A stretch of 57,516 nt of DNA. Source: Microvirga brassicacearum (lineage in GTDB: Bacteria; Pseudomonadota; Alphaproteobacteria; Rhizobiales; Beijerinckiaceae). The notes below the pieces were generated by a model. The model was not told where the DNA came from. It saw only the letters and a program-made list of their open reading frames with translations, and did not search any database. Location: positions 1 to 57,516 of the forward strand of contig NZ_VCMV01000017.1 of assembly GCF_008757455.1 (NCBI RefSeq), written 5' to 3'. Shown here one piece after another: positions 34,024 through 49,109 of the stretch. The translations under genes were made by a program, and so were the position numbers. The stretch's first letter is position 1; every line of letters begins with the position of its first letter.

Positions 34024-36750
34024 TCAGCGTCTAACGTTCGGCGAGGTTTCTCGCCGATGGCTTTCACCGGTACCGGTGAATTCTGGATCTGGCGTCTCGC
34101 GGCTTGTGACCTCCGCTTTCGTAACGCGACGCAAAATGTGAGGAATGATGCCACCGCCCCGCAGTAATTCGACTTCGAGTCCGGTCTCGATTGCGGCTGT
34201 GGCAATGAATGTCTGGCTTTCACCCGACGCACGATGGATCGTGAAGGACACGGGGCAGCGGGGACTGATCCGGTCCGGCTCTGCATCGATCGCAATCTGA
34301 TCGCGTGGCTTGAGGTGCAGATTGTGCGGATGCTGCTCGGAAGAGAGACGCAGGGGCAGGATTCCCATGCCGATCAAGTTCGAGCGATGTATGCGCTCGA
34401 AGCTTGATGCCAGCACGGCGCGTACACCGAGCAGCGCAATCCCTTTCGCCGCCCAGTCGCGCGACGAGCCCATGCCATAGCGTTCGCCCGCTACCACGAC
34501 CACCGAGGCGCCCTCATTGGCGTAGCGTTCGGCGGCTCGCCACAACGGAAGGTGATCACCCGAACCAACATGGATCGTGGAGCCCGGCGCAATCTGCGAG
34601 TCGAGAAGATTGCGGACGGAATTATTGGTGAACAGGCCCCGAACCATGACCTCCCAGTTGCCACGTCGGGAGGCGAAGACATTCAAGTCACGGGGATTCT
34701 CACCGCGCTCGACGAGGTACCCGGCAGCCTCACTCTGGCGCGGGATCAGCCCGGCTGGCGAAATGTGGTCGGTCGTGATGTCGTCGCCGAGCACGAGCAA
34801 GGGATGCGCCGAATAGGTCCCAAGGAGTGTGCCCTTGCCTAAGCCTGCGAATGGCGGGCGCCGGATATAAGTTGAGTTTGGATCCCAGGGAAACAGATCG
34901 CCGGCGGGAGCGTCGAGCACTTTCCAGGTCTCGCTCGCCTCGGCCTGCTCATAAGAGGTTTGGTAGTCGGCTACGGCCATGGCCATGGCGAGCGCCGCAT
35001 CGATCGCATCCCCGGTGGGCCAGAGATCGGCGAGCCGGATGTCTTCGCCCGACGGCGAGCGCCCAATCGGATCGGTGAGGATGTTACGATTGATGTCGCC
35101 GGCGAGGGCGAAGGCGACAACAAGGGGAGGCGAGGCCAGGAAGCCTGCTTCGAGTTGCGGATGGACGCGTCCCGGGAAGTTGCGGTTACCCGACAGAACG
35201 GCGACGGGCACGATCCCTCGCTCGGCTATGGCCTGATCGATGACCTGAGGCAGCGGCCCCGAGTTGCCGATGCATGTCGTGCAGCCGTAACCAACGATTC
35301 CAAATCCGATGGCTTCGAGGTCCTCGAGCAGCCCCGAGCGACGGAGATAACGCTCCGCCGTCGGTGAACCGGGAGCCAACGACGTCTTCACCCAAGCAGG
35401 TGGGGTGAGGCCGAAGCTGCGCGCCTTGCGGGCCAGCAAGCCAGCGGCGACGACGAGGCGAGGGTCGGACGTGTTCGTGCAGCTCGTGATCGCCGCAATC
35501 GCGACGGCCCCGTTGCCGGGCTGCTCCGAGGACGTCGTGGCGGGCCGTCCCATGAGCAGCGGGGCGAAAGCGTCAACCGTCGTCCCTGCCGGAATGCGGT
35601 CCTGCGGTCGGCGTGGGCCTGCGAGGCTGACCTCGACCTCATCCAGATTGATCTCGATCGTGTCCGTAAAGCACGGGGTGGCCTTGGGGTCGAACCAGAG
35701 GCCCTGCCGTTTTGCATATTCCTCAACGAGGCGGAGCTGGTCTGCTGGGCGGCCCGTCTCGCGAAGGTAGCGCAGCGTTTGTGCGTCGATCGGAAAGAAG
35801 CCGGAATTAGCGCCGAATTCGGGGGCCATGTTGGCGATGACCGCGCGATCACCAGCGGACAGCGTCGAGACACCTTCGCCGTAGAACTCGACGAAGCGAT
35901 CTGCGAGATCGATCCGCCTTAGGCGCTCGGTGACGGTGAGCGCAAGGTCAGTCGCGAGCATGCCCTGCCTGAGACGTCCGGTCAGGCGAACGCCGACCAC
36001 GTCCGGCACTCGGATCATCACGGGCATTCCGAAGAAGACGCTTTCGGCCTCTAACCCGCCCACGCCCCAGCCGAGGACACCGATTCCGTTGATCATCGGC
36101 GTGTGGCTGTCGGTGCCGATCATCGTGTCAGGCACGGCCCATGACACACCCTCGCGTTCCGACACGGTAACGACGGTCGCAAGGCGCTCGAGATTCAGGG
36201 TATGCATGATGCCCGTTCCGGGTGGGTGGACGCGGATCCCGGTGAGAGCTCTCGTTGCCCATTTCATGAAGCGGTAGCGTTCGGCATTACGCCCGAATTC
36301 GCGGTCCATGTTGCTCTGAAGAGCGTTGGAGGAGCCGAACACGTCGACCGCAATGGAATGGTCCGTCGAAACGTCGACGGGCAGTACCGGATTAAGCCAG
36401 CTCGGATCGTATCCAGCCTCCGCGAGCGATGTGCGCATGCCAGCGATGTCCACCAAGGCCGGTCCGCAGGTCGTGTCATGCATCAACACCCGACCGGGAA
36501 GAAACGGAATTTCTTCCTCACTTCGTCCATTGTCCAACCAGCCCAGGATTGCGGCCTTCGCACGCGGCGCATCGTCTCCTGCTGTGCGCAGGACGTTTTC
36601 GAGCATGATGCGAAGAATATGCGGCAGCCGTTCGAGGTCCCCGCCGGCTGCCGCAGGGAGGTCGACGATCCGATAATTTCGATCAGTGATCGTGATGGTG
36701 GTCACGGCGTCTCGCGTTCCAAGTTCAAGATCATGGAAGTCAGATTGCAT
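34024..36750 (-). CDS. aconitase family hydratase (AcnA/IRP type)
   Basis: This 908-residue protein is a full-length member of the AcnA/IRP branch. The [4Fe-4S] ligands are visible as Cys424 in SCTNTSD and Cys490/Cys493 in GYGCTTCIGNSGPLP; the swivel domain with GERYGMGSSRDWAAKG and the substrate-binding ASSFERIHRSNLIGMG follow. The enzyme interconverts citrate and isocitrate or acts on a related tricarboxylate. Its link to a Bug receptor and GntR regulator suggests a dedicated catabolic role rather than the housekeeping TCA enzyme, which should be encoded elsewhere. ATG 36750 is preferred over TTG 36777. Confidence 0.92.
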   Translation of the reverse strand: MQSDFHDLELGTRDAVTTITITDRNYRIVDLPAAAGGDLERLPHILRIMLENVLRTAGDDAPRAKAAILGWLDNGRSEEEIPFLPGRVLMHDTTCGPALVDIAGMRTSLAEAGYDPSWLNPVLPVDVSTDHSIAVDVFGSSNALQSNMDREFGRNAERYRFMKWATRALTGIRVHPPGTGIMHTLNLERLATVVTVSEREGVSWAVPDTMIGTDSHTPMINGIGVLGWGVGGLEAESVFFGMPVMIRVPDVVGVRLTGRLRQGMLATDLALTVTERLRRIDLADRFVEFYGEGVSTLSAGDRAVIANMAPEFGANSGFFPIDAQTLRYLRETGRPADQLRLVEEYAKRQGLWFDPKATPCFTDTIEINLDEVEVSLAGPRRPQDRIPAGTTVDAFAPLLMGRPATTSSEQPGNGAVAIAAITSCTNTSDPRLVVAAGLLARKARSFGLTPPAWVKTSLAPGSPTAERYLRRSGLLEDLEAIGFGIVGYGCTTCIGNSGPLPQVIDQAIAERGIVPVAVLSGNRNFPGRVHPQLEAGFLASPPLVVAFALAGDINRNILTDPIGRSPSGEDIRLADLWPTGDAIDAALAMAMAVADYQTSYEQAEASETWKVLDAPAGDLFPWDPNSTYIRRPPFAGLGKGTLLGTYSAHPLLVLGDDITTDHISPAGLIPRQSEAAGYLVERGENPRDLNVFASRRGNWEVMVRGLFTNNSVRNLLDSQIAPGSTIHVGSGDHLPLWRAAERYANEGASVVVVAGERYGMGSSRDWAAKGIALLGVRAVLASSFERIHRSNLIGMGILPLRLSSEQHPHNLHLKPRDQIAIDAEPDRISPRCPVSFTIHRASGESQTFIATAAIETGLEVELLRGGGIIPHILRRVTKAEVTSRETPDPEFTGTGESHRRETSPNVRR

Positions 36751-36770
36751 AAAACGGGAAGAAAATTCAA

Positions 36771-36779
36771 TCAACAAAT
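36771..36779 (-). promoter_or_regulatory. candidate regulator half-site upstream of aconitase
   Basis: The reverse strand reads ATTTGTTGA, identical to the left arm of the palindrome before gntR (32906-32914), and is followed by TTGAATT. It lies 21 bases upstream of the aconitase start. Confidence 0.3.
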
Positions 36780-36966
36780 TGCATTTGCGGACAGCAATAT
36801 GCTAAATTGCCTTCGCGCATCCAGGGGTAGCAGGTCCCGGGAGGAGGGGCGTTTTCCCTCGGAATACAGAAAGGCAGTCGCCCGGGCCTCCTTATCTTTC
36901 GACGACAACTGAACTGAACTCCGCGCGCTGCCCTGCGTTGCCGCAGCGAGGCAGGAGGGTTCGCCG

Positions 36967-37554
36967 ATGAGCACGCATGCGCCGATGCATTTCTGGAAAG
37001 GATCGTGGGATCTTCGCGAGTCCGAGTGCGCCTGCGACATTCACCTCATCAAGTGGCTCGACGCGGAGCAGGTGAGAGACGCGACGATTTTTCATTTCGG
37101 GACGGGCGCGCACCACCACGTCGGCATCGAATGTGCCCGGCCAGAGCGCCGCAATTCAGTTCTTGGCATTACCGCATCGCCTCAGGAGTACGAGGCATAC
37201 GTGACGCTTGCCATTAACCGCCCGGAGGTTCTGCGCTTCTACACCGCCATCTTCGGCGACATCTATCTCCTCAATGAAAAGCTGCTGCCAACGTTCGATG
37301 TGGTCACGCTCTTCCATCTCTGCGAATTTCGGGGGGAGCAGAATGATGCCTATGGAGCTATGACGGACCTGGCGATCGCGAACCTGCTGACCAGCAAGAC
37401 TCGGCCTGGTGGGCACATCCTGTTCTATCCCAGTTCGTTTGCATTCGACCGTGCCGACCACAGCGCAAAGGATGTCATCGTGCAATGGGAGCAGGGACGT
37501 CAGGTCGAGCGGGTAGGGATGTTCGATGGGCTTCTGGTCTACCGGAAGACGTGA
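36967..37554 (+). CDS. hypothetical protein with Rossmann-like motif
   Basis: I do not recognise a named family for this 195-residue protein. It has an early ATIFHFGTGAHHHVGIE segment resembling the glycine-rich motif I of SAM-dependent methyltransferases, an acidic/aromatic strand LPTFDVVTLFHLCEFRGE and a late PGGHILFYPSSFAFD that would correspond to the beta-5 region, so a class I methyltransferase-like fold is plausible. Three adjacent histidines inside the loop are unusual. It is divergent from the aconitase gene and convergent with the enolase-family gene. Confidence 0.65.
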   Translation: MSTHAPMHFWKGSWDLRESECACDIHLIKWLDAEQVRDATIFHFGTGAHHHVGIECARPERRNSVLGITASPQEYEAYVTLAINRPEVLRFYTAIFGDIYLLNEKLLPTFDVVTLFHLCEFRGEQNDAYGAMTDLAIANLLTSKTRPGGHILFYPSSFAFDRADHSAKDVIVQWEQGRQVERVGMFDGLLVYRKT

Positions 37555-37674: not shown

Positions 37675-38853
37675 TCAGACAAACAAAGCGGCCGGATTCG
37701 CGACGAACTTCGCCAGTTTGTCGCGATCAAGCGCGACACCGAGGCCCGGCTGTTCTGGGATCCCCAGATATCCGTCCTCATCGAGGGTGAAGGGTTCTGC
37801 AAGGATGCCGTCGACATAGGGGCTCCCGCCGATATACTCAACGAGGTCCGCATCGGGGAACGCCGCGGACATCTGCAAATCGGCAGCAAGGCCGAGTGCG
37901 GTGTTCCAGCCATGGCCGATATATTTGACGCCGAAATCTGCTGCCATCCAGGCGATGCGGCGTTGTTCGCTGATGCCGCCGACCTTGGTGACATCCGGCT
38001 GCACGATATCGAAGGCGCCTCTGGTCAACCATGGAATGAACGCCTGACGTCGTGTCAGAACCTCGCCGCCGGCGATCGGCACCGGGCTGACGCGTCTGAG
38101 GTGACAGAAATCATCGATAGCGTCGGGTTTGACGGCCTCTTCAAACCACCCGATATCGTAGTCGTTCAGCATCTCGGCGGTGCGCATGGCCCATTTCAGG
38201 CCGTGCGGCCAATTCGCATCGCTGGCACCCGCGTCGACAAACAGCTTATTCTCAGCACCCGCCGCCTCCCGCGCGGCGCGAACGATGGCTTCATCGAGCT
38301 TGGAATCGAGCGCGCGCCCGAAGGGTCCCCAGCCGATCTTGAAGGCGCGGAAGCCCTTTGCCCGGTACTCCTCGACCACGTCGCGCATGCGCTCGGGCTC
38401 TTCCATGAGGAGAGAGCAATAGGGCTGGACCCGACGGCGGTAGGTTCCACCGAGGAGCCGGCCGACCGGGATGCCGGTCGCCTTGCCGAGAATATCCCAA
38501 AGGGCGATGTCGATGCCGCTGATGGTGTGGGTCAGCGTGCCGCCGCGGCCCATCCAGAAGGTGTTCTGATGCAGTTTCTCGCTGACGCGTTCCGGCTCCA
38601 GCGCATTCTCGCCTTCATAAAGCGGTGCGAGCACTTGTAATCCGGCTTGCACGAGACGCCCGTCGGTGAAGGAACTTCCGTAGCCGGTAATGCCCGCATC
38701 AGTGTGAACCGCGATGATGGCGTGGATGGAATCTTCCGGTCTGATCTCCTGAGACCATCCGCCCTTCGGGCTTTCACCCAGCAGGGGCGCTGCCTCGATC
38801 GATCTGATTTTGATCGGGGGAAGGGCGGCCTGAGGAGGATGATCTGCCGGCAT
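37675..38853 (-). CDS. mandelate racemase/muconate lactonizing enzyme family protein 1
   Basis: This 392-residue enolase-superfamily protein has an N-terminal capping domain and a TIM-barrel. Metal ligands are likely Asp207 (FVDAG), Glu238 (WFEEA) and Glu264 (AGGE); a His-Asp dyad of the mandelate racemase subgroup appears as Asp287 (QPDVTKVGG) and His314 (IGHGWN). The usual K-x-K pair is reduced to one lysine, Lys172 in RAFKIGWGPFG. It should abstract the alpha-proton of a carboxylate and racemise, dehydrate or cycloisomerise it. It follows the GntR gene by 44 bases and shares its operon. Confidence 0.85.
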   Translation of the reverse strand: MPADHPPQAALPPIKIRSIEAAPLLGESPKGGWSQEIRPEDSIHAIIAVHTDAGITGYGSSFTDGRLVQAGLQVLAPLYEGENALEPERVSEKLHQNTFWMGRGGTLTHTISGIDIALWDILGKATGIPVGRLLGGTYRRRVQPYCSLLMEEPERMRDVVEEYRAKGFRAFKIGWGPFGRALDSKLDEAIVRAAREAAGAENKLFVDAGASDANWPHGLKWAMRTAEMLNDYDIGWFEEAVKPDAIDDFCHLRRVSPVPIAGGEVLTRRQAFIPWLTRGAFDIVQPDVTKVGGISEQRRIAWMAADFGVKYIGHGWNTALGLAADLQMSAAFPDADLVEYIGGSPYVDGILAEPFTLDEDGYLGIPEQPGLGVALDRDKLAKFVANPAALFV

Positions 38854-38897
38854 GATTTTCCCTACCTTGTTCGGTTGAGTGGAATGGGAATTGAGGT

Positions 38898-39695
38898 TCA
38901 GGACCTGTCTGCCGAATCCCGCTCGGCTCTGCGCCGTTCGATGATGGCGAGGAAATCGAGTGCGTGGGTCTGGACGTTGATGTGATCGTCGAGCGCTTTC
39001 GTCATGCCCTCAACGTCACCGGAAGCGAAGACGCTCACGAGCTTCCGATGCTCGTCTACGATATCCGCCATCGCTTTCCCCAACGTTGAAAGGCCGACGA
39101 TGATGGTCAATTGCCGTGACAGCATCTCCCAGAGGTCGCACACCACCTCGTTGCCGCTGAACTGACAGAGGGCACGATGAAAATCCGTGTCGGCGCTGGC
39201 AAAACCATAGGCATCCTGACGAGCACCCATCAGCTCGAGCACATCGATGTGCCGATTGAGGATTTTGACGGCCTTGCGGTCGTTGCGGCCGGCGACGATC
39301 GCGCGAACGGCAGCGGCGGTTTCCAGCGCCACACGGGCTTCGATCAGATGGTCGATGCGTTCCTGCGTCACCGTTCGCAGGCGGATGCCCTTGTAGGGCT
39401 CGTTGACCACCAGCCCCTGGCTCTCGAGAATGCGAAGGGCTTCCCGGACCGGCACGCGGCTGACGCCAAGCCCTTGTGCCAGATCCGACTCCACGATCCG
39501 GTCGCCGGGAAGAATACGGCTCGATGCGGCTGCGGCCACGACCTCGTCGATCACGGCGTCGACGAGCGTGCGCGGTCGCAGAGGCTGCCACCCGCTCTCC
39601 TTGTCCGCTTCCCGCGCCTCTGTAACCGGCGCCTTCCTCTGTCGCGATTTGGTGATGTCCATAAGCCGCTCAAATTTGTTCAATCGCGGAGCCAT
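38898..39695 (-). CDS. GntR family transcriptional regulator (FCD type)
   Basis: The 265-residue regulator has a basic N-terminal extension, a winged helix at about residues 43-107 (RIVESDLAQGLGVSRVPVREA is the recognition region) and an FCD effector domain with the D-x3-H (DTDFHRAL) and later H-x3-H type residues that bind a metal and carboxylate effector. It is encoded divergently from the deacylase-ABC-peptidase operon and upstream of the enolase-family gene, so it is the probable local regulator of both transcripts. ATG 39695 is used; Met12 is an alternative. Confidence 0.9.
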   Translation of the reverse strand: MAPRLNKFERLMDITKSRQRKAPVTEAREADKESGWQPLRPRTLVDAVIDEVVAAAASSRILPGDRIVESDLAQGLGVSRVPVREALRILESQGLVVNEPYKGIRLRTVTQERIDHLIEARVALETAAAVRAIVAGRNDRKAVKILNRHIDVLELMGARQDAYGFASADTDFHRALCQFSGNEVVCDLWEMLSRQLTIIVGLSTLGKAMADIVDEHRKLVSVFASGDVEGMTKALDDHINVQTHALDFLAIIERRRAERDSADRS

Positions 39696-39779
39696 CCGTC
39701 AGCGTCTCCGCGCAATGTGCCTTTATCACCAATCGCCGCGCGAGCGTGTCGAAACAACAGCCATTGACATTTCGTAGGA

Positions 39780-39797
39780 TTGTATACCATCATACAA
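39780..39797. promoter_or_regulatory. candidate GntR operator in the divergent promoter
   Basis: TTGTATACCATCATACAA is a perfect 6-bp dyad (TTGTAT-N6-ATACAA), matching the T-N-G-T...A-C-N-A logic of FCD-type GntR operators. It lies between gntR (39695) and the deacylase start (39828). A TTGACA at 39764-39769 just upstream may be the -35 box of the rightward promoter, so binding would block it. Confidence 0.6.
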
Positions 39798-39827
39798 AAC
39801 ACAAAACAAGGTTGCTTGGGGCAGCAG

Positions 39828-40868
39828 ATGGCGGATGGCGAGATAAAGAGTCGGATCCGATGTGATATCGATTTCGACAAGAACGGTCGGCAGGCGGGCT
39901 ATCTGCGAGCGCCGCTGTCCCGCAATACCTCCGGATGGGGGATCATCGAGATCCCCATCGTTTGTGTCAAAAACGGTTCCGGCCCGACCGTGTTGTTCAC
40001 GGGGGGCGTGCACGGTGACGAGTATGAGGGCCAGATCGCCGTGTCGCGGCTCGCGCAAACGCTTGAGCCCTCCTCCGTGCAGGGCCGTGTCATCATGCTG
40101 CCTGCCGTCAATGTTCCGGCGGTCTTGAACGACACGCGCTTGTCGCCCATCGATCATCGCGACATGAATCGCTGCTTTCCAGGCAACCCCCGCGGCACGT
40201 TCTCGGAAATGCTCGCCCATTTCATCGACACGACGTTGGTGCCGCTCGCGGATGTGTCCGTCGATCTTCACACCGCCGGCCACTCGATGGAATCCGCGCT
40301 GTCGACCAACATGCATTACGTCGCAGACAGCGCGCTGCGGGAACGCACGATGAGGGCGGCGTCGGCCTTCGGTGCGCCGTACAACGTTGTCTTCTGGGGC
40401 GTCGACGAGGGAGCCACCCTGACGTCCTCCGTGGAGCGTCGCGGAATTTTGTCCGTCGGGACCGAGCTGGGCGGGTGGGGGCGCGTTCATGTGGAGGGCG
40501 TCCGCACTGGCAAACGCGGCCTCGACAATGTTCTCAAGCATCTCGGCATGATCGAGGGCAGGCCCGATACCACGCAGCGCGATGGGTCGCCCGTCACGCG
40601 CCATATGATGGTGCGGGACCCGAAATGTTACCTGTTTGCTCCTGCGGGCGGCGTCTTCGAGCCGCGACACCTCGCTGGCGACCCGGTGGAGGAAAATGAG
40701 GTGGCGGGATATCTGCACTTCGTTGAAGATGTGGACCGGGCACCCGTTGAAATGCGCTATCCGCGCGGCGGGGTGCTCTGGATGGCCTCAGGCCCCGGCC
40801 GCGTGCAGCGTGGAGACGCGGTTGCTGTTGTGATGAATGATTACGACGAGGTGTCGGCCTCCGAATAG
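39828..40868 (+). CDS. succinylglutamate desuccinylase/aspartoacylase (DoeB-like) deacylase
   Basis: This 346-residue zinc enzyme has the metal ligands His62 and Glu65 in GGVHGDEYEG and His148 in VDLHTAG, with RDMNRCFPGN at 111-120 matching the D-x-N-R-x-F-P-G block of the family. The closest familiar member is DoeB, which removes the acetyl group from N-alpha-acetyl-diaminobutyrate in ectoine breakdown; no other ectoine genes are nearby, so it likely hydrolyses an amide in the substrate of this cluster. The ATG at 39828 is taken over an upstream start at 39780 which would overlap the operator. Confidence 0.85.
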   Translation: MADGEIKSRIRCDIDFDKNGRQAGYLRAPLSRNTSGWGIIEIPIVCVKNGSGPTVLFTGGVHGDEYEGQIAVSRLAQTLEPSSVQGRVIMLPAVNVPAVLNDTRLSPIDHRDMNRCFPGNPRGTFSEMLAHFIDTTLVPLADVSVDLHTAGHSMESALSTNMHYVADSALRERTMRAASAFGAPYNVVFWGVDEGATLTSSVERRGILSVGTELGGWGRVHVEGVRTGKRGLDNVLKHLGMIEGRPDTTQRDGSPVTRHMMVRDPKCYLFAPAGGVFEPRHLAGDPVEENEVAGYLHFVEDVDRAPVEMRYPRGGVLWMASGPGRVQRGDAVAVVMNDYDEVSASE

Positions 40869-40984
40869 GAACCAGACGCCAGCGTGAAGGGCCAGGCATC
40901 GGAGATCGACATTCTCGATCATGACAAGGTGCAAGCCTGAACTTCAGAGAGAACCGGCATTGCGCCACCAGCATGGAGGATCAG

Positions 40985-42526
40985 ATGAAACGATGGTTTG
41001 GTTTCGGCACGACAGCACTCGGTGCCGCCGTTCTGCTGACGGCTTCAGGTAGCGTCCTTGCACAGACCAAGGGCGGCGATGTTGTGATCGCCATCACGCA
41101 GGCACCACCGTCGCTTGACGCCCAGGTGACCTCTGCGCAGGCCGCGCGCAACGTTACTCTTCAGATTTACGAGACGCTCTATGCGCGCGACGAGAACGCA
41201 AAGCCCGTGCCGGAGCTTTCCGAGGAGGCCAAGATCTCGGCGGACGGCAAGACCTACGTCTTCCCGATCCGGAAGGGCGTCAAGTTTCATAACGGCAAGG
41301 AGCTTGATGCGAAGGATGTTGTCGCGTCGCTGGAACGCTATCGGAAAGTCGGCGCATCCGCATCGCTGCTGAGTGCCATCGACAAGGTCACCGAAACCGG
41401 TCCGCACGAGGTCACGGTCACGTTGAAGGACGTCCAATCCACATTCCTCGACAATCTGTCCTCACCGCGCGCGCCGATTGCGATCTACCCGGCAGAAGAG
41501 GCGGCAAAGCCCGCCAACCAGATCAACTATATCGGCACCGGCCCTTTCCGATTTGTGGAATACAAACCCGACAGCCATGTGAAGATCGCGCGTTACGACG
41601 GCTATGTTCCCAACCCGAAGGCCACCGGTCGCGACGGGCTCGCGGGTAAAAAGGAAGTGTTTCTCGATACGGTCACGTTCCGGTTCATGCCGGAAGCGGG
41701 CGCACGCAGCGCGGCCTTCGAGGCGGGGGAGGTGCAGCTTCTCGAAACCGTCGAAGGTGCAACCGCGAAGCGGTTGGAAAGCGACAAACGATACGTGGTT
41801 TACAAGGTCCTGCCTTTCGCCTTCCAGGTCATCAAGTTCAATCACGCGCAACCGCCGACCAACGACGTCAACTTCCGGCTGGCCGTGCAGGCGGCCCTCG
41901 ACATGGAAGAGATCATGGCGATCTCGTATCCGGACATCAACCAGATCGATGGTGCCTGGCTCTATCCCGGTGCTCCATTCTACACCAAGACCGGGACCGA
42001 GAAGTACAACCAGGCGGACCTCAACGCCGCCAAGGCCTTGCTGGCAAAGTCTGGTTATAAGGGCGAGAAGCTCACCTTCATCGTCGACAATCTGCGCGCC
42101 AACACCGATACGGCAACCGTCGTTCAGCAGCGGCTCAAGGACATCGGCGTCAATGTCGAATTGTCGGTCGCCGATTGGCCGACCGTGTCAAAGATCGGCT
42201 TCACCCCCAATGGCTGGCAGTTCTGGGCTCACGGCTACGGCATCGAGCCCTATGAGGGGCCGGCATCCGTAATGGCACCTTGGGTGAACGGAACCTCGCA
42301 GCTCAAGAAAGACGACAAGATCGACAGCCTCTCTGCCGCGCTCAACAGCGCCATGGACGAGGGCAAGCGGAAGGAGATCTTCGTCGAGTTCCAGAAGCAC
42401 ATGTACGACAACGCGGTCGCCATGAAGGCTGGAAATTACGGGCTGTTCCAGGTCGGTACGGCAAAGTTGAAGAACTTCAAGCCCTATCGCATCCCCCGCA
42501 TGTGGGGCGTCTGGCTCGAGCCGTAA
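40985..42526 (+). CDS. Opp/Dpp-type ABC transporter substrate-binding protein
   Basis: The 513-residue family 5 solute-binding protein has a signal peptide (cut expected after SVLAQ), then GDVVIAITQAPPSLDAQ and ARDENAKPVPELSEEAKISA typical of peptide-, nickel- and opine-binding receptors. The ligand cannot be deduced. The start at ATG 40985 is preceded by GGAGGA five bases upstream, which decides against the ATG at 40973. It is the first transporter gene of the operon and is followed by a strong hairpin. Confidence 0.92.
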   Translation: MKRWFGFGTTALGAAVLLTASGSVLAQTKGGDVVIAITQAPPSLDAQVTSAQAARNVTLQIYETLYARDENAKPVPELSEEAKISADGKTYVFPIRKGVKFHNGKELDAKDVVASLERYRKVGASASLLSAIDKVTETGPHEVTVTLKDVQSTFLDNLSSPRAPIAIYPAEEAAKPANQINYIGTGPFRFVEYKPDSHVKIARYDGYVPNPKATGRDGLAGKKEVFLDTVTFRFMPEAGARSAAFEAGEVQLLETVEGATAKRLESDKRYVVYKVLPFAFQVIKFNHAQPPTNDVNFRLAVQAALDMEEIMAISYPDINQIDGAWLYPGAPFYTKTGTEKYNQADLNAAKALLAKSGYKGEKLTFIVDNLRANTDTATVVQQRLKDIGVNVELSVADWPTVSKIGFTPNGWQFWAHGYGIEPYEGPASVMAPWVNGTSQLKKDDKIDSLSAALNSAMDEGKRKEIFVEFQKHMYDNAVAMKAGNYGLFQVGTAKLKNFKPYRIPRMWGVWLEP

Positions 42527-42533
42527 GAACAAT

Positions 42534-42563
42534 CGGCCGGCGGGTCCATTCGCCCGCCGGCCG
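42534..42563 (+). terminator. strong hairpin between binding-protein and permease genes
   Basis: CGGCCGGCGGG at 42534-42544 and CCCGCCGGCCG at 42553-42563 form a perfect 11-bp stem with an eight-base loop just after the binding-protein stop. No U-tract follows, so it is better read as an mRNA-stabilising or attenuating structure that would raise binding-protein level relative to the permease. Confidence 0.7.
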
Positions 42564-42580
42564 GAATCAAAGGAGCCGTC

Positions 42581-43525
42581 ATGTCGAGATTTCTAGTCAA
42601 GCGGCTTGCCGGTGCCTTCGTCGTCCTGGTCCTGGTGTCCCTCATGTCGTTCGCGATCATCTGGCTTGTGCCGGGGGATCCGACGGCGGCGTTTCTCGAC
42701 ACGAGCGCAACGCCCGACCAGGTTGCGCGCCTGCGTCAGCAGCTCGGTCTCGACCGGCCGATCGCCATGCAGATGCTCGATTGGTATGCGCGCATCGTTC
42801 AGGGCGATCTCGGCCATTCCATTCTGCTGAACCGAAGTGTGACCGCAGCCATTTTGGAGCGTCTCCCTGTCACGCTGTCCCTCGCCGGGCTGGCGCTCGC
42901 TTTCGCGCTCGTGATGGGCGTTCTGGCGGGGATCGTCGCAGCCGTTCATCACAACCGGTGGCCCGACCAACTCGTGATGAGCCTGGCGCTGTTCGGATTG
43001 TCCGTCCCTGATTTCTGGCTCGGCATCATGTTGATCCTGCTTTTTGCGGTCAAACTCGGCCTATTTCCCACCGGAGGCTATGTGCCATTCAGTGAAGACC
43101 CTTTCGGCTGGGCCGGCACCATCATCATGCCGGCACTCACCCTCGCCATCATCCAGGTCGGTTTCGTCGCCCGCATGACACGGGCCTCGATGCTGGAAAT
43201 TCTCAATCAGGATTTCATCCGGACAGCTGATGCGAAAGGCTTGAAACGGGCCGAGATCATGCTGCGCCACGGCTTGCCGAATGCGCTGATCCCGATCCTC
43301 ACGGTCGGCGGGATCGTCGCCGGTGCGCTCCTTGGCGGGGCCGTCATCATCGAACAGGTCTATTCCATTCCCGGCGTGGGAAGGTTGATCATCGGCGGAA
43401 TTCTGTCCCGTGACTATCCCGTGATCCAGGGAGGGTTGCTGTTCCTGGCGGTCATCTATCTCACCGTCAATCTCGTGGTCGACATTCTGTATGCGGTCGC
43501 CGATCCGCGGGTCCGTCTCGAATGA
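42581..43525 (+). CDS. Opp/Dpp-type ABC transporter permease (DppB-like)
   Basis: This 314-residue inner-membrane permease starts with the DppB-type first helix (RFLVKRLAGAFVVLVLVSLM) followed by PGDP, has six helices and the cytoplasmic EAA-type loop (RTADAKGLKRAEIMLRHGLP) that docks on the ATPases. It pairs with the next permease, whose start codon overlaps its stop by four bases. Confidence 0.93.
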   Translation: MSRFLVKRLAGAFVVLVLVSLMSFAIIWLVPGDPTAAFLDTSATPDQVARLRQQLGLDRPIAMQMLDWYARIVQGDLGHSILLNRSVTAAILERLPVTLSLAGLALAFALVMGVLAGIVAAVHHNRWPDQLVMSLALFGLSVPDFWLGIMLILLFAVKLGLFPTGGYVPFSEDPFGWAGTIIMPALTLAIIQVGFVARMTRASMLEILNQDFIRTADAKGLKRAEIMLRHGLPNALIPILTVGGIVAGALLGGAVIIEQVYSIPGVGRLIIGGILSRDYPVIQGGLLFLAVIYLTVNLVVDILYAVADPRVRLE

Positions 43526-44394
43526 GTATCGCCATCGCCAAACCAGAATTGGCGCCTCGCAGCCCAACGATGATCGTGATCGTGCGGCTGTTTCAGAGCC
43601 GCTCGTTCCTGATCGGTGCTGCCCTGGTTCTCGCCATTGCGTTGGTCGCGGTCTTTGCCGATGTCCTTTCGCCCTACGATCCGCTGCGCAACAGTTTCCG
43701 CACGCGCCTCAGGCCCCCGGACAGTACGTTCTGGTTCGGAACGGATCATTTCGGGCGCGATATCCTTTCGCGCGTCATTCACGGAGCTCGGATTTCGTTG
43801 GTCATCGGTCTCATGACGGCGCTGCTGACCGGCATCGCCGGGACGATGATCGGCGCGGTTGCGGGGTTCTTTCCCACCCTCGACAACCCGATCATGCGGC
43901 TGATGGATGCCTTGATGGCATTCCCTGCGATCGTCCTTGCGATCGCGGTTGCGGCGGTCCTCGGCGCATCGGTCGTGAATGTCATCATTGCACTCTCCAT
44001 CGCGACGACTCCCCACACGGCTCGGATCGTCCGCGCCTCCGTCCTCGTTGTGCGCGAGCGGGAATTCATCGAAGCGGCCCGGGCACTCGGCGCCTCCGAT
44101 CTGAGAGTGCTCTGCCGCCATGTGATGCCGAACGCCTTCGGGCCCCTGATCGTCCGACTGACCTACGTCTTTGCAACCGCCATTCTTGCAGAGGCTGCGT
44201 TGTCGTTCATTGGCGTCGGCCCGCCGCCGCCTGCGCCGTCATTCGGCAGCATCATCGCGCAGGGCCGGGATTTCATCACGGAAGCACCCTGGATCACGAT
44301 CTTTCCGGGACTCGCCATCATCGTATCGGTGCTCGGCCTCAACCTTCTCGGCGACGGCCTGCGCGACGTTCTCGATCCTCGGATGAGGACCTGA
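43522..44394 (+). CDS. Opp/Dpp-type ABC transporter permease (DppC-like)
   Basis: This 290-residue permease has the DppC-type N-terminal helix with a periplasmic loop (FGTDHFGRDILSRVIHGARI) and the EAA loop EAARALGASDLRVLCRHVMP. Six helices are predicted. The ATGA overlap with the preceding permease shows translational coupling, and the first ATPase gene begins two bases after its stop. Confidence 0.93.
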   Translation: MSIAIAKPELAPRSPTMIVIVRLFQSRSFLIGAALVLAIALVAVFADVLSPYDPLRNSFRTRLRPPDSTFWFGTDHFGRDILSRVIHGARISLVIGLMTALLTGIAGTMIGAVAGFFPTLDNPIMRLMDALMAFPAIVLAIAVAAVLGASVVNVIIALSIATTPHTARIVRASVLVVREREFIEAARALGASDLRVLCRHVMPNAFGPLIVRLTYVFATAILAEAALSFIGVGPPPPAPSFGSIIAQGRDFITEAPWITIFPGLAIIVSVLGLNLLGDGLRDVLDPRMRT

Positions 44395-44395
44395 G

Positions 44396-45397
44396 ATGAG
44401 CGGCGACATGCAGCGACCGATCCTCTCGGTACAGGGTCTGACCACCGTGCTCGCGCGCTCCGGTGCGACCATTCTGGAAGATATCTCATTCTCCCTAACG
44501 CCCGGAGAGGTCTTGGGCGTGGTGGGTGAATCCGGCAGCGGGAAGAGCATGCTGGCTCTCTCGATCATGGGCTTGTTGCCGAACGTCGTGCGACGCAGCC
44601 GCGGCATCGTCAGTCTCGACGGGGACGAATTGACGGCTCAGTCACCGGATCATTGGCGAGAGAAGCGTGGCCGTGATCTCGCCATGATCTTTCAGGAACC
44701 GATGACTGCGCTTAACCCTGTCATGCGGGTCGGAAACCAAATTGCGGAAGTTTTGCGCCGCCGCCGGGGCCTGTCCGGTTACGAGGCCAGCAAGGAAGCG
44801 CTCAATCTGCTGCGCCTCGTTGAGATCCCATCTCCCGAGAAGCGGATTTCCGCCTATCCGTACGAGCTCTCGGGCGGAATGCGCCAACGCGTCATGATCG
44901 CGATTGCGCTTGCGGCGGACCCGAAGGTTCTGATCGCCGATGAACCGACGACTGCCCTCGACGTGACGGTCCAGGCCCAAATTCTCGATCTGCTGCGCAA
45001 GTTGCGGCGCGACAGAGGTCTCTCGCTGCTGTTCATCACGCACGATCTCGGGGTCATCGCGGAAATCGCCGACCGCGTCATGGTTCTCTATGCGGGGAGA
45101 GTTGCCGAGATCGCACCCGTCCGCAGCATCTTCGACGATCCTCAGCATCCCTATACCCAGGCGCTGCTGGCCTCGATTCCCGACATGAAAGGCCCCCGTG
45201 GGCGACTGGTGACGATCGAGGGATCGGTACCAGCCATCGGTGGCATGCTCGAAGCGTGCCGGTTCTCGCCGCGGTGCCCATTCCGGCGTGACATCTGCGA
45301 ATGGGAAAGGCCACACCTGGGCGTCGTCTCGGGCCAGCAAGCGGCCGCTTGCTTTCGTCCTTTCGGATACGAACAACCGCTGGAGGCTGTCATATGA
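44396..45397 (+). CDS. Opp/Dpp-type ABC transporter ATP-binding protein (DppD-like)
   Basis: This 333-residue ATPase has Walker A GESGSGKS at 44-51, signature LSGGMRQR, Walker [13 protein letters not shown] and a C-terminal oligopeptide-type extension with the cysteine-rich [15 protein letters not shown], which in this family may hold an iron-sulphur cluster. It is one of the two different ATPases of the importer and overlaps the next gene by four bases. Confidence 0.94.
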
Positions 45398-46398
45398 CCC
45401 GTGAGATCGCCATCGAGGCGAGGGGGCTGACGAAGGTTTTCGGCGGCCGCGGCAGCGTTTTCGGGCGACAGACCGGAGGTGCGCGGGCCGTTGATGGCGT
45501 CGATCTGATCGTTCGTTCCGGCGAAACCCTGGGTCTTGTTGGCGAGTCCGGCTGCGGAAAGTCGACAACCGGTCGGCTTCTGCTCCGTCTCATCGAGCCG
45601 ACAGCGGGTTCGGTCGCGTTCAACGGGCGCGACCTGACGGAATTGACGAAAGCTGAATTGCGGCGGAGCCGGGGGAAGATGCAAATCATCTTCCAGGATC
45701 CATACGGATCTCTCAATCCGCGGATGACAGTCGGGGATGCGATCTCCGAAGCCTACGTGATTCACCGCATCGGGGATCGAGCGTCGCGGGCGAAATCGGT
45801 CCTGGAGATGCTGGATCTCGTCGGATTGCCGCGCTCGGCGGCCTCGCTATACCCGCATGAATTTTCCGGCGGTCAAAGGCAGCGCGTGGGCATCGCCCGC
45901 GCGCTGGCGCTGAGGCCGAGTTTTGTCGTCTGCGACGAGGCCGTATCGGCACTGGACGTTTCCGTGCAGGCACAGATCATCAACCTGCTTCAGGATCTGC
46001 AACGTGAACTGAATCTGACCTACCTTTTCATTTCCCACAACCTGTCGGTGGTTCGCCACATCTCCGATAGGGTCGCGGTGATGTATCTCGGCCGCATCGT
46101 CGAGGTCGCGGAGGCGGATCATTTGTTCGCCGATCCGGCGCATCCCTATACGCAGGCGTTGCTGTCGGCAATTCCGCCTTCACATCCCGATGAGCCGCGT
46201 CACCGTCACGAGCTGGTCGGTGATCTACCCAGTGCTCACGATATACCGGTTGGATGCCGCTTCGCGCCACGCTGCCCGTTCGTGCAGGACCGCTGCCGCG
46301 CGACCGATCCGCAATTAAGCCCGCTTCCCGACGGCCGGTTCGTCGCCTGCCATCGGGCAGCTGACGGTTCGCTTCCAACCTATCGCTTGAATTCGTAA
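45394..46398 (+). CDS. Opp/Dpp-type ABC transporter ATP-binding protein (DppF-like)
   Basis: The 334-residue partner ATPase has Walker [10 protein letters not shown] at 50-58, the signature FSGGQRQR, Walker [13 protein letters not shown] and the same cysteine-containing C-terminal extension ([14 protein letters not shown]). ATG 45394 overlaps the previous stop, which decides it against the upstream in-frame start at 45301. With the binding protein, two permeases and DppD-like ATPase this makes a complete importer. Confidence 0.94.
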
Positions 46399-46413
46399 GG
46401 ATACGAGAAAGCC

Positions 46414-47925
46414 ATGCCCAGAATCCTGATCGCCGAGTGCATGCAGGAAATTTCATCCTTCAATCCGCTGCCTTCTCGATATGAGAATTTCCACATCGAG
46501 CGAGGGGACGAGCTTTATGGGAGACGCGGCCTCAACACGTCCATCGGTGGCGCTCTCGCTGTCTTCGAGGCTCAACCGGACATATCGATCGTCCCCGCCA
46601 TCAGCGCCCACGCGGGAAGTGCCGGTCTGTTGGCGGCGGATGCCTGGCAAAAACTCTCTCGCGAAATCCTCGACGCCGTTCGCGATAGCGTTGACGGCTT
46701 GGATGGAATCTACGTGTCGCTCCACGGCGCCATGGGTGCCGAGGGGGAGCTCGATCCGGAAGGTAATCTCCTGACCGAAATTCGCCGGATGGCAGGGCCG
46801 GATGTTCCGATCGTCGTATCCCTCGATCTTCATGGCATCCTCACCGACAGGATGCTTCGTCAGATCGACGGCCTTGCCATTTACCACACCTATCCGCATG
46901 TGGACTTTGCCGATACAGGGGAACGCGCGGCGCGACTTCTCCTCCAACTGATGCGCGGAGGGATCAAGCCGATCATTGCTCGCGTCGTCATCCCGGCGCT
47001 TGTTCGCGGCGACGAGTTGATTACCCGGACCGGTTGTTACGGCGATCTGATCGGGGAATGCCGCCGGATTGAGCGCGACGGCACGGCGATGGCGGCCGGC
47101 ATCATGATCGGCAATCCATTCACCGACGTGCCCGAGCTCTGCTCGCAGGTTCTGGTCATGACGAACGGTGATGTGGGCGCCGCCGAGAGGGAAGCGACGC
47201 GGATTGCCGAAGAGTTCTGGCCGCAGCGCTTCAGAATGCAGGGAAAGCTGATCAGTCTCGATCGAGCAATCGCGCAAGCAGCCAGCATCGACGGACCGGT
47301 CATCTTCACCGATGCTGCAGACGCGACTTCTTCCGGGGCGACAGGAGATTCGAACGTCATCCTCAGAGCGCTGCGAGACGCCCGGTATGGCAAACGTGTC
47401 CTCGCCCAGATCGTTGATCCTTCGGCGGCCGAGGCGGCGCACAGGGCTGGTGTCGGCGCCATCATCGAGGTCGATCTTGGTGGATATTTCGACAAGCGAC
47501 GCTTTGCCCCCATGCGGGTGCGTGCGAAGGTCCGGCTCCTCTCGGATGGGCAGTCACGACTAGAAACCATGAAGACGCCCCTCGATGCGGGACCCACCGC
47601 AGTGCTGACGTTCGGGAATTTTACAGTCGTCGTCTTCAGCAACTCCATCAGCCTGTTCGATCGAGCGATGTACTACGCGAACGGCCTTAACCCAGTCGAT
47701 TTCGACCTGATCGTGGTCAAGTCGCCGCATACGGAACACCACATGTATGACGGTTGGGTGGCCAAGAACTTCAATGTCGACGCACCGGGGTCCACCTCCG
47801 CGAACCTGAAAAGTCTCGGCCATACGATCTGCGCGAGGCCGATCTATCCGCTGGACGAGGGCGTCACGTTCGAGCCGAACGCCGTCATCTACGATCGTTC
47901 CCTGACAAACCACCAATCGCGGTGA
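46414..47925 (+). CDS. M81 family metallopeptidase (MlrC-like)
   Basis: This 503-residue protein matches the M81/DUF1485 family named after MlrC, which cleaves linearised microcystin in Sphingomonads. Landmarks are ECMQEISSFNP at the N-terminus, VSLHGAMGAEGELDPEG (102-118), the likely zinc ligands Asp138/His140 in SLDLHG and His162 in YPHVD. Most family members are not in microcystin degraders and occur beside peptide importers, as here, so I infer amide or peptide hydrolysis of the imported compound rather than a microcystin function. It follows the ATPase gene by 15 bases. Confidence 0.85.
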   Translation: MPRILIAECMQEISSFNPLPSRYENFHIERGDELYGRRGLNTSIGGALAVFEAQPDISIVPAISAHAGSAGLLAADAWQKLSREILDAVRDSVDGLDGIYVSLHGAMGAEGELDPEGNLLTEIRRMAGPDVPIVVSLDLHGILTDRMLRQIDGLAIYHTYPHVDFADTGERAARLLLQLMRGGIKPIIARVVIPALVRGDELITRTGCYGDLIGECRRIERDGTAMAAGIMIGNPFTDVPELCSQVLVMTNGDVGAAEREATRIAEEFWPQRFRMQGKLISLDRAIAQAASIDGPVIFTDAADATSSGATGDSNVILRALRDARYGKRVLAQIVDPSAAEAAHRAGVGAIIEVDLGGYFDKRRFAPMRVRAKVRLLSDGQSRLETMKTPLDAGPTAVLTFGNFTVVVFSNSISLFDRAMYYANGLNPVDFDLIVVKSPHTEHHMYDGWVAKNFNVDAPGSTSANLKSLGHTICARPIYPLDEGVTFEPNAVIYDRSLTNHQSR

Positions 47926-47930
47926 CCGTT

Positions 47931-49109
47931 ATGAAGATTGAGTCTGTCGATTTCTTCTATCTTTCGATGCCCGAGGTCACCACCGAGGCTGACGGTAGCC
48001 AGGACGCGCTGCTCGTGCGCGTTTCAGCGGGCGGATATGTCGGGTGGGGTGAGTGCGAGGCCTCGCCGCTCACGTCGATTGCCGGTTTCCTCTGCCCGAT
48101 GTCCCACGGAGTATGCCGGCCGGTTCGCGATTCCGTGCTCGGCAAGCCGCTCGATAGCCCGGCCGATATCGCAAGGATCGCCGCCGAGGTTGAGTATAAC
48201 AGCATGGACTTGCTCCAGGCAGCCCACACTTTCTCAGGTGTGGAAATGGCGTTGTGGGACGTTCTCGGAAAGGCAAAGGATACGCCGGTCTGGAGGCTCC
48301 TCGGCTATTCGGCCTCGCATAAAAAGACGCCTTATGCGTCGCAGCTGTTCGGCGCCACGCCGGAAGAGACGCTGAGGGGTGCCCGGAAGGCACGCCGAGA
48401 TAATTTCAGGGCCGTCAAATTCGGATGGGGACCCATCGGGCGCGGCAGCGTGCAGGATGACAAAGACCACCTCCAGGCTGCCCGTGAAGGCCTCGGGCCC
48501 GACGGAATTCTGCTTGTCGATGTCGGCCAAATCTGGGGAGAGGATGTCGCCGCAGCCGAAGCCCGACTGCCAGCCCTCGAGGCCTCGGGTGCGATCTGGC
48601 TCGAGGAGCCTTTTCATGCGAGCGCGCTTGAGGCTTACGGGCAATTGGCCAAGTTGAGCCTCAAGGTGAAAATCGCTGGCGGGGAGGGCGCCCACAACGT
48701 GTCCATGGCACGCCACCTTATCGATTATGGTGGCATTGGTTTCGTTCAGATCGATTGCGGCCGCATCGGCGGAATTGGACCGGCGAAAGCGGTTGCTGAT
48801 TACGCAGTGGAGCGTGGAATTACCTATGTGAACCACACATTCACATCGCACCTCGCTCTGAGCGCCTCGCTTCAGCCATTCGCGGGCCTTGCCGATCACC
48901 GCATCTGCGAATTCCCGTTCGCTCCCAAGGCGCTCGCTCGAGACATCACCGCGAACTTTTTGCAGCGCGATACGATGGGCGAGATCGCAGCCCCTGATGC
49001 GCCTGGTCTCGGGATCGCAATCGACATGAGGGCATTGCAAAAATATCTGGTCGATGTGGAAATCAAAGTTGCGGGCCGCGTGCTCTATGCGACGCCCGAA
49101 CTCGCATAG
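47931..49109 (+). CDS. mandelate racemase/muconate lactonizing enzyme family protein 2
   Basis: The 392-residue enolase-superfamily protein ends the operon. Likely metal ligands are Asp197 (LVDVG), Glu225 (WLEEP) and Glu252 (GGEG), with the dyad Asp275 (QIDCGRIGG) and His302 (VNHTF), and a single lysine Lys163 in RAVKFGWGPIG. This KxGWGPxG block is shared with the enzyme at 37675-38853, so the two are paralogues of one subgroup with probably related but different substrates or stereochemistry. ATG 47931 is used; a GTG at 47922 overlapping the peptidase stop in a GTGA is also possible. Confidence 0.86.
   Translation: MKIESVDFFYLSMPEVTTEADGSQDALLVRVSAGGYVGWGECEASPLTSIAGFLCPMSHGVCRPVRDSVLGKPLDSPADIARIAAEVEYNSMDLLQAAHTFSGVEMALWDVLGKAKDTPVWRLLGYSASHKKTPYASQLFGATPEETLRGARKARRDNFRAVKFGWGPIGRGSVQDDKDHLQAAREGLGPDGILLVDVGQIWGEDVAAAEARLPALEASGAIWLEEPFHASALEAYGQLAKLSLKVKIAGGEGAHNVSMARHLIDYGGIGFVQIDCGRIGGIGPAKAVADYAVERGITYVNHTFTSHLALSASLQPFAGLADHRICEFPFAPKALARDITANFLQRDTMGEIAAPDAPGLGIAIDMRALQKYLVDVEIKVAGRVLYATPELA

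Follow-up and report, generated by a model that had tools for sequence, protein, structure and literature searches.

What nutrient is served by a locus that joins two enolase-superfamily enzymes, two zinc-type hydrolases and a complete peptide-type ABC importer? The question is raised by ten genes of Microvirga brassicacearum that occupy positions 37,675 to 49,109 of a 57,516-nucleotide stretch of DNA (contig NZ_VCMV01000017.1, positions 1 to 57,516, forward strand), which in its full length is referred to as the window. An initial annotation had described a divergent locus in which a GntR regulator and one enolase (EnoA) face an eight-gene operon encoding a 'DoeB-like' deacylase (DacB), the importer, an M81 metallopeptidase and a second enolase (EnoB). 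All ten genes were found where it had placed them (Table 1). The binding protein (SBP), two permeases and two ATPases of the importer were all identified by Pfam, and literature searches, with subscription papers largely outside reach, surfaced no paper describing the ten-gene set or assigning it a substrate, as that annotation had supposed. The ten genes and their common control site are well supported as a unit and are not a chance grouping; the best reading of the unit is a peptide importer and two amidases joined to a non-phosphorylating sugar-acid pathway.

The co-occurrence check proposed in the initial annotation was run on the best 80 of 223 DacB relatives from a genome-collection scan, weaker relatives not being represented, with open reading frames (ORFs) chosen by codon-position GC scoring. 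EnoA is present in 55, M81 in 54 and EnoB in 56 of the 80 DacB-anchored loci, and all four enzymes occur together in 43; of the 59 loci that reach 18 kb, 37 have all four. At least two of the three partners are found in 46 of these 59 loci and at least one in 67 of the 80; the remaining 13 (L028, L067, L068, L071, L075, L076, L079 and L081–L086), some of them short contigs, carry no partner at the thresholds used, and L068, L071 and L076 carry a more distant M81 protein (47–50%). GntR relatives of at least 35% identity occur in 44 loci, 40 of them within the 80. Because gene order is reshuffled between lineages, the persistence of the grouping is more telling. On plasmid A of R. sphaeroides 2.4.1 the cluster (DQL45_RS20365 to RS20420), to which the record's annotation gives no function, is laid out as GntR-SBP-permeases-SDR, SDR-EnoA and DacB-M81-EnoB-ATPases with the operator described below, and differs from the window in its operator-marked separate units, its SBP (44% identical to that of the window) and the two SDR genes within it. 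Mirror-tree correlations were uneven, from a rho of 0.28 (DacB/M81) to 0.87 (SBP/GntR), over related, non-de-duplicated loci, and are not used as proof.

An order sample of 249 genomes, in which the best few candidates per genome were scored and a fourth DacB match (45%) was left out, contained EnoA in nine genomes, EnoB in eight and M81 and DacB in three each. Each of the three DacB genomes has EnoB on the same contig, and EnoA and M81 are found in two of them; in the remaining M81 genome (G087), which lacks DacB, EnoA lies on a different contig. In a plasmid collection DacB and M81 occur in an identical set of 12 records, all 12 with EnoA and EnoB. The enolases range more widely: DacB accompanies EnoA in two of nine genomes and EnoB in three of eight in the order sample, and is missing from seven of the 19 plasmid records with EnoA and from eight of the 20 with EnoB. 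EnoA and EnoB are therefore reusable modules. Independent movement of the genes, which the initial annotation had given as grounds for doubting its proposal, is in this way seen for the enolases and mostly not for DacB.

The control site is a palindrome, TNGTATACNATNATACNA, read off the regions upstream of dacB and scanned at up to one mismatch. The window holds two overlapping copies, which also overlap a TTGACA promoter-like site and are the sole copies at this stringency in the 5.2 Mb genome; the palindrome was absent from 100 shuffles of the window. The 80 loci, 1.45 Mb in total, contain 111 such sites and no instance of the reversed pattern; 54 of the loci have at least one, and in 53 it lies within 250 bp upstream of dacB. 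Among the 43 four-enzyme loci the palindrome lies upstream of dacB in 39. The dacB-upstream count is partly circular because the pattern was derived from those loci. Independent recurrence comes from rearranged clusters, where the palindrome precedes gntR/SBP and atpD and, in four loci, a sulfatase gene, from three places on plasmid A of R. sphaeroides 2.4.1 (gntR/SBP, EnoA/DacB and before the ATPases) and from Martelella and Klebsiella loci obtained later than the pattern. Five promoter-like sites were found in the region against 3.3 expected; promoter and terminator counts are near chance.

The active sites of the enolases bear on what they do. Both carry the MR_MLE N and C domains (PF02746 and PF13378) above cut-off. 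Orthologue rows comprised the window and loci at identities of at least 60% (EnoA, EnoB and DacB) or 55% (M81) with 85% coverage, and were not de-duplicated (L036/L095 and L074/L097 are apparently the same contigs). The catalytic residues of EnoA, EnoB, DacB and M81, judged intact in the initial annotation, are invariant across these rows. In EnoA, K172, G174, W175, D207, E238, E264, D287, H314 and E339 are unvarying in all 68 rows (the window and 67 loci), and the corresponding pattern of EnoB in all 67. The three invariant acidic metal ligands and the His-Asp dyad place both proteins in the mandelate racemase (MR) subgroup, and the second lysine of the K-x-K motif is replaced by glycine in every EnoA and EnoB row, unlike in the racemase type. 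This lysine is the opposite-face base in racemase-type enolases (cf. the title of 1mns), and when a single base remains, an enolase is more likely to abstract the proton from one side and dehydrate its substrate than to racemise it. The structure nearest to EnoA, 3sjn, likewise carries K-x-G. Galactarolactone cycloisomerase (4hpn/4ggb) and 3,6-anhydro-D-galactonate cycloisomerase (5olc), the next nearest solved folds among the matches listed, differ from EnoA in their 29–33% identity and in the K-x-K found in 4ggb and 5olc. A solved relative of EnoB is 2hzg (E value 5e-180; R. sphaeroides according to its title). K-x-G and the presence of orthologues in sugar and sugar-acid cassettes together favour dehydration of a sugar acid over a racemase-type reaction on N-acyl amino acids, and EnoA and EnoB are probably sugar-acid dehydratases. 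More distant enolases (about 31–33% to EnoB) also occur: they lie between dacB and the binding-protein gene in L028 and L073, follow two DacB genes in L067 or accompany EnoA in the ABC cassette of L103.

The sugar and sugar-acid cassettes are contexts in which the enolases stand without DacB (L099–L102 and L104–L106 were mapped without a family scan). EnoA (69–73% identity) is encoded on six K. pneumoniae plasmid records, and the two read in detail (L110 and L111) carry an ASRT gene, an MFS sugar porter, an SDR, a GntR protein and EnoA with the same operator; no DacB- or M81-kind hydrolase is annotated in these two stretches. The porter, tested in one record, matches TIGR00879 at 325.1 bits (cut-off 237.8), and the GntR proteins are 47–51% identical to that of the window. 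The Klebsiella cassette is compact and lies on conjugative-typed plasmids with insertion sequences or transposases nearby. Elsewhere, EnoA-FAH-SDR lies next to an SBP_bac_8-type ABC importer and EnoB (L096), EnoB accompanies a gluconolactonase (L098) or an ABC importer (L094), EnoA occurs with an ABC importer and a third enolase (L103) and, in Skermanella (L112), EnoB-dgoD lies with a DHDPS-family gene and a TRAP transporter. A Sinorhizobium mexicanum relative of EnoB (51%) is found with an ABC importer, an SDR, an aldolase and an aldehyde dehydrogenase. ASRT domains have been argued to be sugar sensors found with sugar and sugar-acid dehydratase genes (passages of PMC2739507). On the simplest reading, both the inducer and the EnoA substrate derive from sugars, and a front end made up of DacB, M81 and the peptide importer frees the acid from a conjugate.

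The proposed front end is built from peptide- and amide-processing families. The importer is of the Opp/Dpp type, with a family-5 SBP, two permeases and two oligo_HPY ATPases; family-5 binding proteins bind solutes other than peptides too. DacB belongs to the AstE/AspA zinc acylase superfamily (PF24827, an H..E..H zinc motif and a catalytic glutamate), and its zinc and catalytic positions, common to DoeB, are invariant in all 79 rows. It has a solved relative in 3cdx (E value 1.4e-166), which we take to originate from R. sphaeroides, and its closest solved relative with an assigned activity is 6twm, an N-acetyl-diaminobutyrate deacetylase (E value 2.8e-66). The label 'DoeB-like' holds for the fold and the catalytic site and does not extend to equivalence with DoeB/EutE, the N-acetyl-L-2,4-diaminobutyrate deacetylase: DacB scores 280.2 bits against the TIGR02994 cut-off of 402.7, shows changes close to its catalytic residues (GGK to AGH and GGGG to GGWG) and has no further ectoine-breakdown gene among the ten cluster genes. 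Tandem DacB-type genes lie beside the importer, without EnoA, in L067 (67/48%) and L075 (64/51%). The M81 protein has PF07364, PF07171 and the five catalytic residues of the M81 metallopeptidases (E12, H104, D138, H140 and H162), which are invariant in all 58 rows and align in the same order and with near-identical spacing with Glu56, His150, Asp184, His186 and His208 of microcystinase C (MlrC), as given in passages of PMC12474180; the role assayed for M81 enzymes in those passages is microcystin breakdown only. In contrast to MlrC, the window protein reaches 141.4 bits in model NF041767 (cut-off 999), and no mlrA-, mlrB- or mlrD-type gene is among the ten. The M. brassicacearum genome has seven M81 genes. 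Of the six encoded elsewhere than in the window, five are found within or close to Opp-type ABC clusters, so that M81 with an Opp importer looks like a general chassis. The partners in these clusters, on contigs C40, C15, C54, C12 and C61 (L119 and L121–L124), are class III aminotransferases, a D-serine dehydratase-domain protein, a luciferase-like monooxygenase, an amidohydrolase or an AstE/AspA protein.

Enzymes that could act after such a dehydration are found in some relatives. An SDR of the 2-keto-3-deoxyrhamnonate (KDR) type (at least 55% identity to the L052 protein) occurs in 16 of the 80 loci, and in L019 this SDR lies several kilobases away from the cluster. An FAH hydrolase is present in seven of the 80; it lies on the EnoA side in L010, L052, L055, L063 and L087 and after EnoB and the SDR in L070. 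The best solved relative of the FAH is 8gsr, an L-2,4-diketo-3-deoxyrhamnonate hydrolase, and with 429.2 and 438 bits the FAH proteins of two relatives are close kin of NF053535 (2,4-didehydro-3-deoxy-L-rhamnonate hydrolase), below its cut-off of 500. The top solved relatives of the KDR-type SDR are 9jve, 9kq1 and 6d9y, the last being named as the structure closest to L-KDR dehydrogenase in a passage of PMC11199699. A dehydratase-type enolase, a KDR-type SDR and an FAH protein stand together in some relatives, as in route III, the non-phosphorylating L-rhamnose/L-fucose diketo-hydrolase route, as described in passages of PMC6336799 and PMC11199699; the window differs in placing a peptide-type importer and two amidases in front, in its two enolases and in having no SDR or FAH in the cluster. 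A second SDR type occurs in seven of the 80 loci and also in L101, L109 and L114. In L040, EnoA lies between a glucose-1-dehydrogenase-type SDR (PRK07231, 215.8 bits, cut-off 215) and an aldose epimerase gene (PF01263). The M. brassicacearum genome encodes unlinked relatives of the FAH (C26:38314, 66%), the KDR-type SDR (C15:285743, 74%) and the second SDR type (C54:27379, 79%; C40:38942, 74%), none of them with the operator in a genome scan at up to one mismatch.

Within the window, the operon is packed as the initial annotation had stated, PermB/PermC and AtpD/AtpF overlapping by 4 bases and PermC/AtpD, AtpF/M81 and M81/EnoB being 1, 15 and 5 bases apart; larger gaps separate DacB from SBP (116 bases) and SBP from PermB (54). 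The start of DacB was placed at the ATG at 39828 and not at the upstream TTG at 39780 because of its 346-residue homologues and the position of the operator. EnoB and DacB both have their closest named relatives in Microvirga, among them a protein from a Microvirga metagenome-assembled genome that is 99% identical to DacB. The stretch 34024–37554, which adjoins the cluster, holds a 917-residue ORF, aconitase A-like by eye, and a 195-residue ORF (36967–37554) without assignment; the mapped DacB loci contain no match to either at an E value of 1e-10 and half coverage.

Table 1. Genes and control elements of the divergent locus, in window coordinates.
Feature	Position	Strand	Evidence
EnoA, MR-subgroup enolase	37675–38853	-	K172-x-G174-W175; metal ligands D207/E238/E264; D287-H314 dyad; predicted sugar-acid dehydratase
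GntR family (FCD) regulator	38898–39695	-	PF00392, PF07729
Sigma-70-like promoter, dacB operon (candidate)	39764–39793	+	TTGACA, 18 nt, CATCAT; consensus scan alone
Two overlapping operator-like palindromes	39772–39797		39780–39797 (+) TTGTATACCATCATACAA, no mismatch; 39772–39789 (-), one mismatch
DacB, AstE/AspA-family (DoeB-like) Zn deacylase	39828–40868	+	PF24827 131.1 bits; H62, E65, H148, E213, R104, N114, R115
SBP, family 5 periplasmic binding protein	40985–42526	+	PF00496 246.5 bits
PermB, Opp/Nik-type permease	42581–43525	+	PF00528, PF19300
PermC, Opp-type permease	43522–44394	+	PF00528, PF12911
AtpD, Opp-type ATPase	44396–45397	+	PF00005, PF08352
AtpF, Opp-type ATPase	45394–46398	+	PF00005, PF08352
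M81 metallo-amidase (MlrC family)	46414–47925	+	PF07364 284 bits, PF07171 138.4 bits; E12, H104, D138, H140, H162
EnoB, second MR-subgroup enolase	47931–49109	+	K163-x-G165-W166; D197/E225/E252; D275-H302 dyad; predicted sugar-acid dehydratase

Taken together in a mechanism, the GntR protein would repress the operon by occupying the two overlapping palindromes over the promoter-like site, and a sugar-derived acid would relieve this repression. The Opp-type importer would bring in a small amide-linked sugar-acid conjugate, the amide bonds of which would be hydrolysed by DacB and M81. In EnoA and EnoB the histidine of the His-Asp dyad would then take the C2 proton, and the 3-hydroxyl would be eliminated to give 2-keto-3-deoxy acids, because the second lysine used for racemisation is glycine. 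In some relatives an L-2-keto-3-deoxyrhamnonate-type 4-dehydrogenase (the SDR) and then a 2,4-diketo-3-deoxy-acid hydrolase (the FAH) would yield pyruvate and a hydroxy acid. Judged from the family chemistry of the importer, DacB and M81, the odds that the locus takes up an amide-linked sugar acid are about even, and this is the best single reading; the amide is suggested at the sequence level by the retention of the five MlrC residues in M81 and by M81 paralogues that mostly accompany Opp-type clusters. Of the pathway outlined in the initial annotation, the complete importer, the two zinc-type hydrolases and the two enolases stand as a unit travelling through many lineages, and the racemase-type chemistry on N-acyl amino acids gives way to sugar-acid dehydration, favoured by K-x-G-W and the sugar contexts.

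Several observations weigh against the proposed sugar-acid pathway. The downstream route is borrowed from relatives, with FAH in seven of the 80 loci only, and the window contains no SDR or FAH of these types, so that the same-cluster arrangement of route III is not seen there. Both enolases stay below cut-off in every NCBIfam dehydratase model, those for named sugar-acid dehydratases and for cis-3-hydroxyproline dehydratase included (the top scores are 171.9 of 311 bits for EnoA and 97.9 of 750 for EnoB), and that the amide involves the sugar acid itself, rather than for example an acetyl group, we infer. DacB and importer genes occur without EnoA or EnoB orthologues in L028, L067, L068, L071, L073, L075 and L076, five of these seven loci having an enolase merely 32–36% like EnoB and L028 being a 5.9 kb contig. 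At one mismatch the operator is lacking from 26 of the 80 loci, and it is missing upstream of dacB in four of the 43 four-enzyme loci; the 26 include L081–L086, betaproteobacterial DacB relatives (56–57%) that stand without other cluster genes. Other EnoA and EnoB cassettes (L094, L096, L098–L106, L112 and L113) are without it even at two mismatches.

The importer and both hydrolases come from peptide and N-acyl amino-acid families, and the locus could accordingly import peptides or N-acyl β-hydroxy or D-amino acids from which DacB and M81 free an amino acid, the enolases then dehydrating or epimerizing a hydroxy-amino acid. The class III aminotransferase, D-serine dehydratase-domain and amidohydrolase genes beside the M81 paralogues are in line with this, as is a weak match of EnoA to the cis-3-hydroxy-L-proline dehydratase model (103.8 bits, cut-off 500). 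We nevertheless regard it as rather unlikely: EnoA and EnoB orthologues without DacB lie beside a sugar porter, a gluconolactonase, dgoD and a diketo-acid hydrolase, and no aminotransferase or deaminase was found among the family-scanned recurring extra clusters (c27, c33, c34, c35, three short ORFs and rarer neighbours being unscanned). One regulator might instead govern two jobs: the importer, DacB and M81 would handle a peptide-like nutrient, whereas the enolases would process a sugar acid unrelated to it, which shares the habitat (both might come from one polymer, for instance) but enters the cell differently. The absence of DacB from seven of the nine EnoA genomes and five of the eight EnoB genomes of the order sample would fit, together with L068, L071 and L076, which have DacB, an M81 homologue, the importer and sulfatases but neither enolase orthologue. 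The placing of DacB, M81 and EnoB in one window operon, with M81 and EnoB 5 bases apart, and of EnoB on the same contig as all three DacB orthologues of the order sample speaks against this division of labour, which is judged unlikely.

Catabolism of an N-acetylated or N-acylated amino-sugar acid, in which DacB would deacetylate, as in ectoine degradation, and the enolases would act on the amino-sugar acid, draws on the relationship of DacB to 6twm and their common catalytic positions. It is very improbable given the sub-threshold DoeB score and the altered residues near the catalytic site, and it leaves M81 unexplained. Known roles were also tried and rejected: dipeptide epimerase (EnoA 35.6 of 500 and 28.6 of 343 bits, EnoB 19.4 of 343; second catalytic lysine absent), the N-acetyl-Glu racemase DgcA (enolase scores of 29.7 and 41.3 bits, cut-off 400), ectoine/hydroxyectoine breakdown (the DoeB score of DacB; the other nine genes are not ectoine genes) and microcystin breakdown (the MlrC score of M81).

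The sugar-acid pathway preferred here may act on modified nutrients in some lineages. Sulfatase c13 recurs in seven Rhodobacterales-type or other alphaproteobacterial loci and c15 in six, several of the sulfatase-bearing genera presumably being marine. Sulfatase c13 follows the operator in L060, L065, L066 and L072 (start codons approximate), and dacB and M81 flank c15 in L068, L071 and L076. One protein of each was scanned; both are PF00884 sulfatases with a C-x-P-x-R motif, and an FGE-type gene, c23, is near in L027, L059 and L066 (family checked in L066). The sulfatases within the cluster therefore suggest that the nutrient is O-sulfated in some Rhodobacterales-type loci. A gamma-glutamyltransferase-like gene follows EnoA on the same strand in L060, L065 and L072 (225.6 of 357.85 bits, tested in L065). 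The recurring ORF clusters c10, c11 and c18 have no Pfam match and probably represent antisense ORFs.

In its widest form, which is put forward tentatively and is more doubtful than the dehydratase assignment, the proposal is that sugar acids joined by an amide to amino acids or short peptides (N-glyconoyl peptides), O-sulfated in some habitats, are a widespread undescribed nutrient class that is taken up by a peptide importer, opened by a dedicated amidase pair and degraded by a non-phosphorylating route, with M81 proteins as general amidases for such conjugates. If this is true, 2hzg, 3cdx, 3iuu and 3sjn, solved structures whose entry names state no function, would gain one that can be tested, and R. 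sphaeroides 2.4.1, in which the cluster has this operator too, offers a laboratory model strain. The known role of M81 peptidases would then extend past microcystin, and the locus would point to an overlooked environmental class of amide-bound sugar acids.

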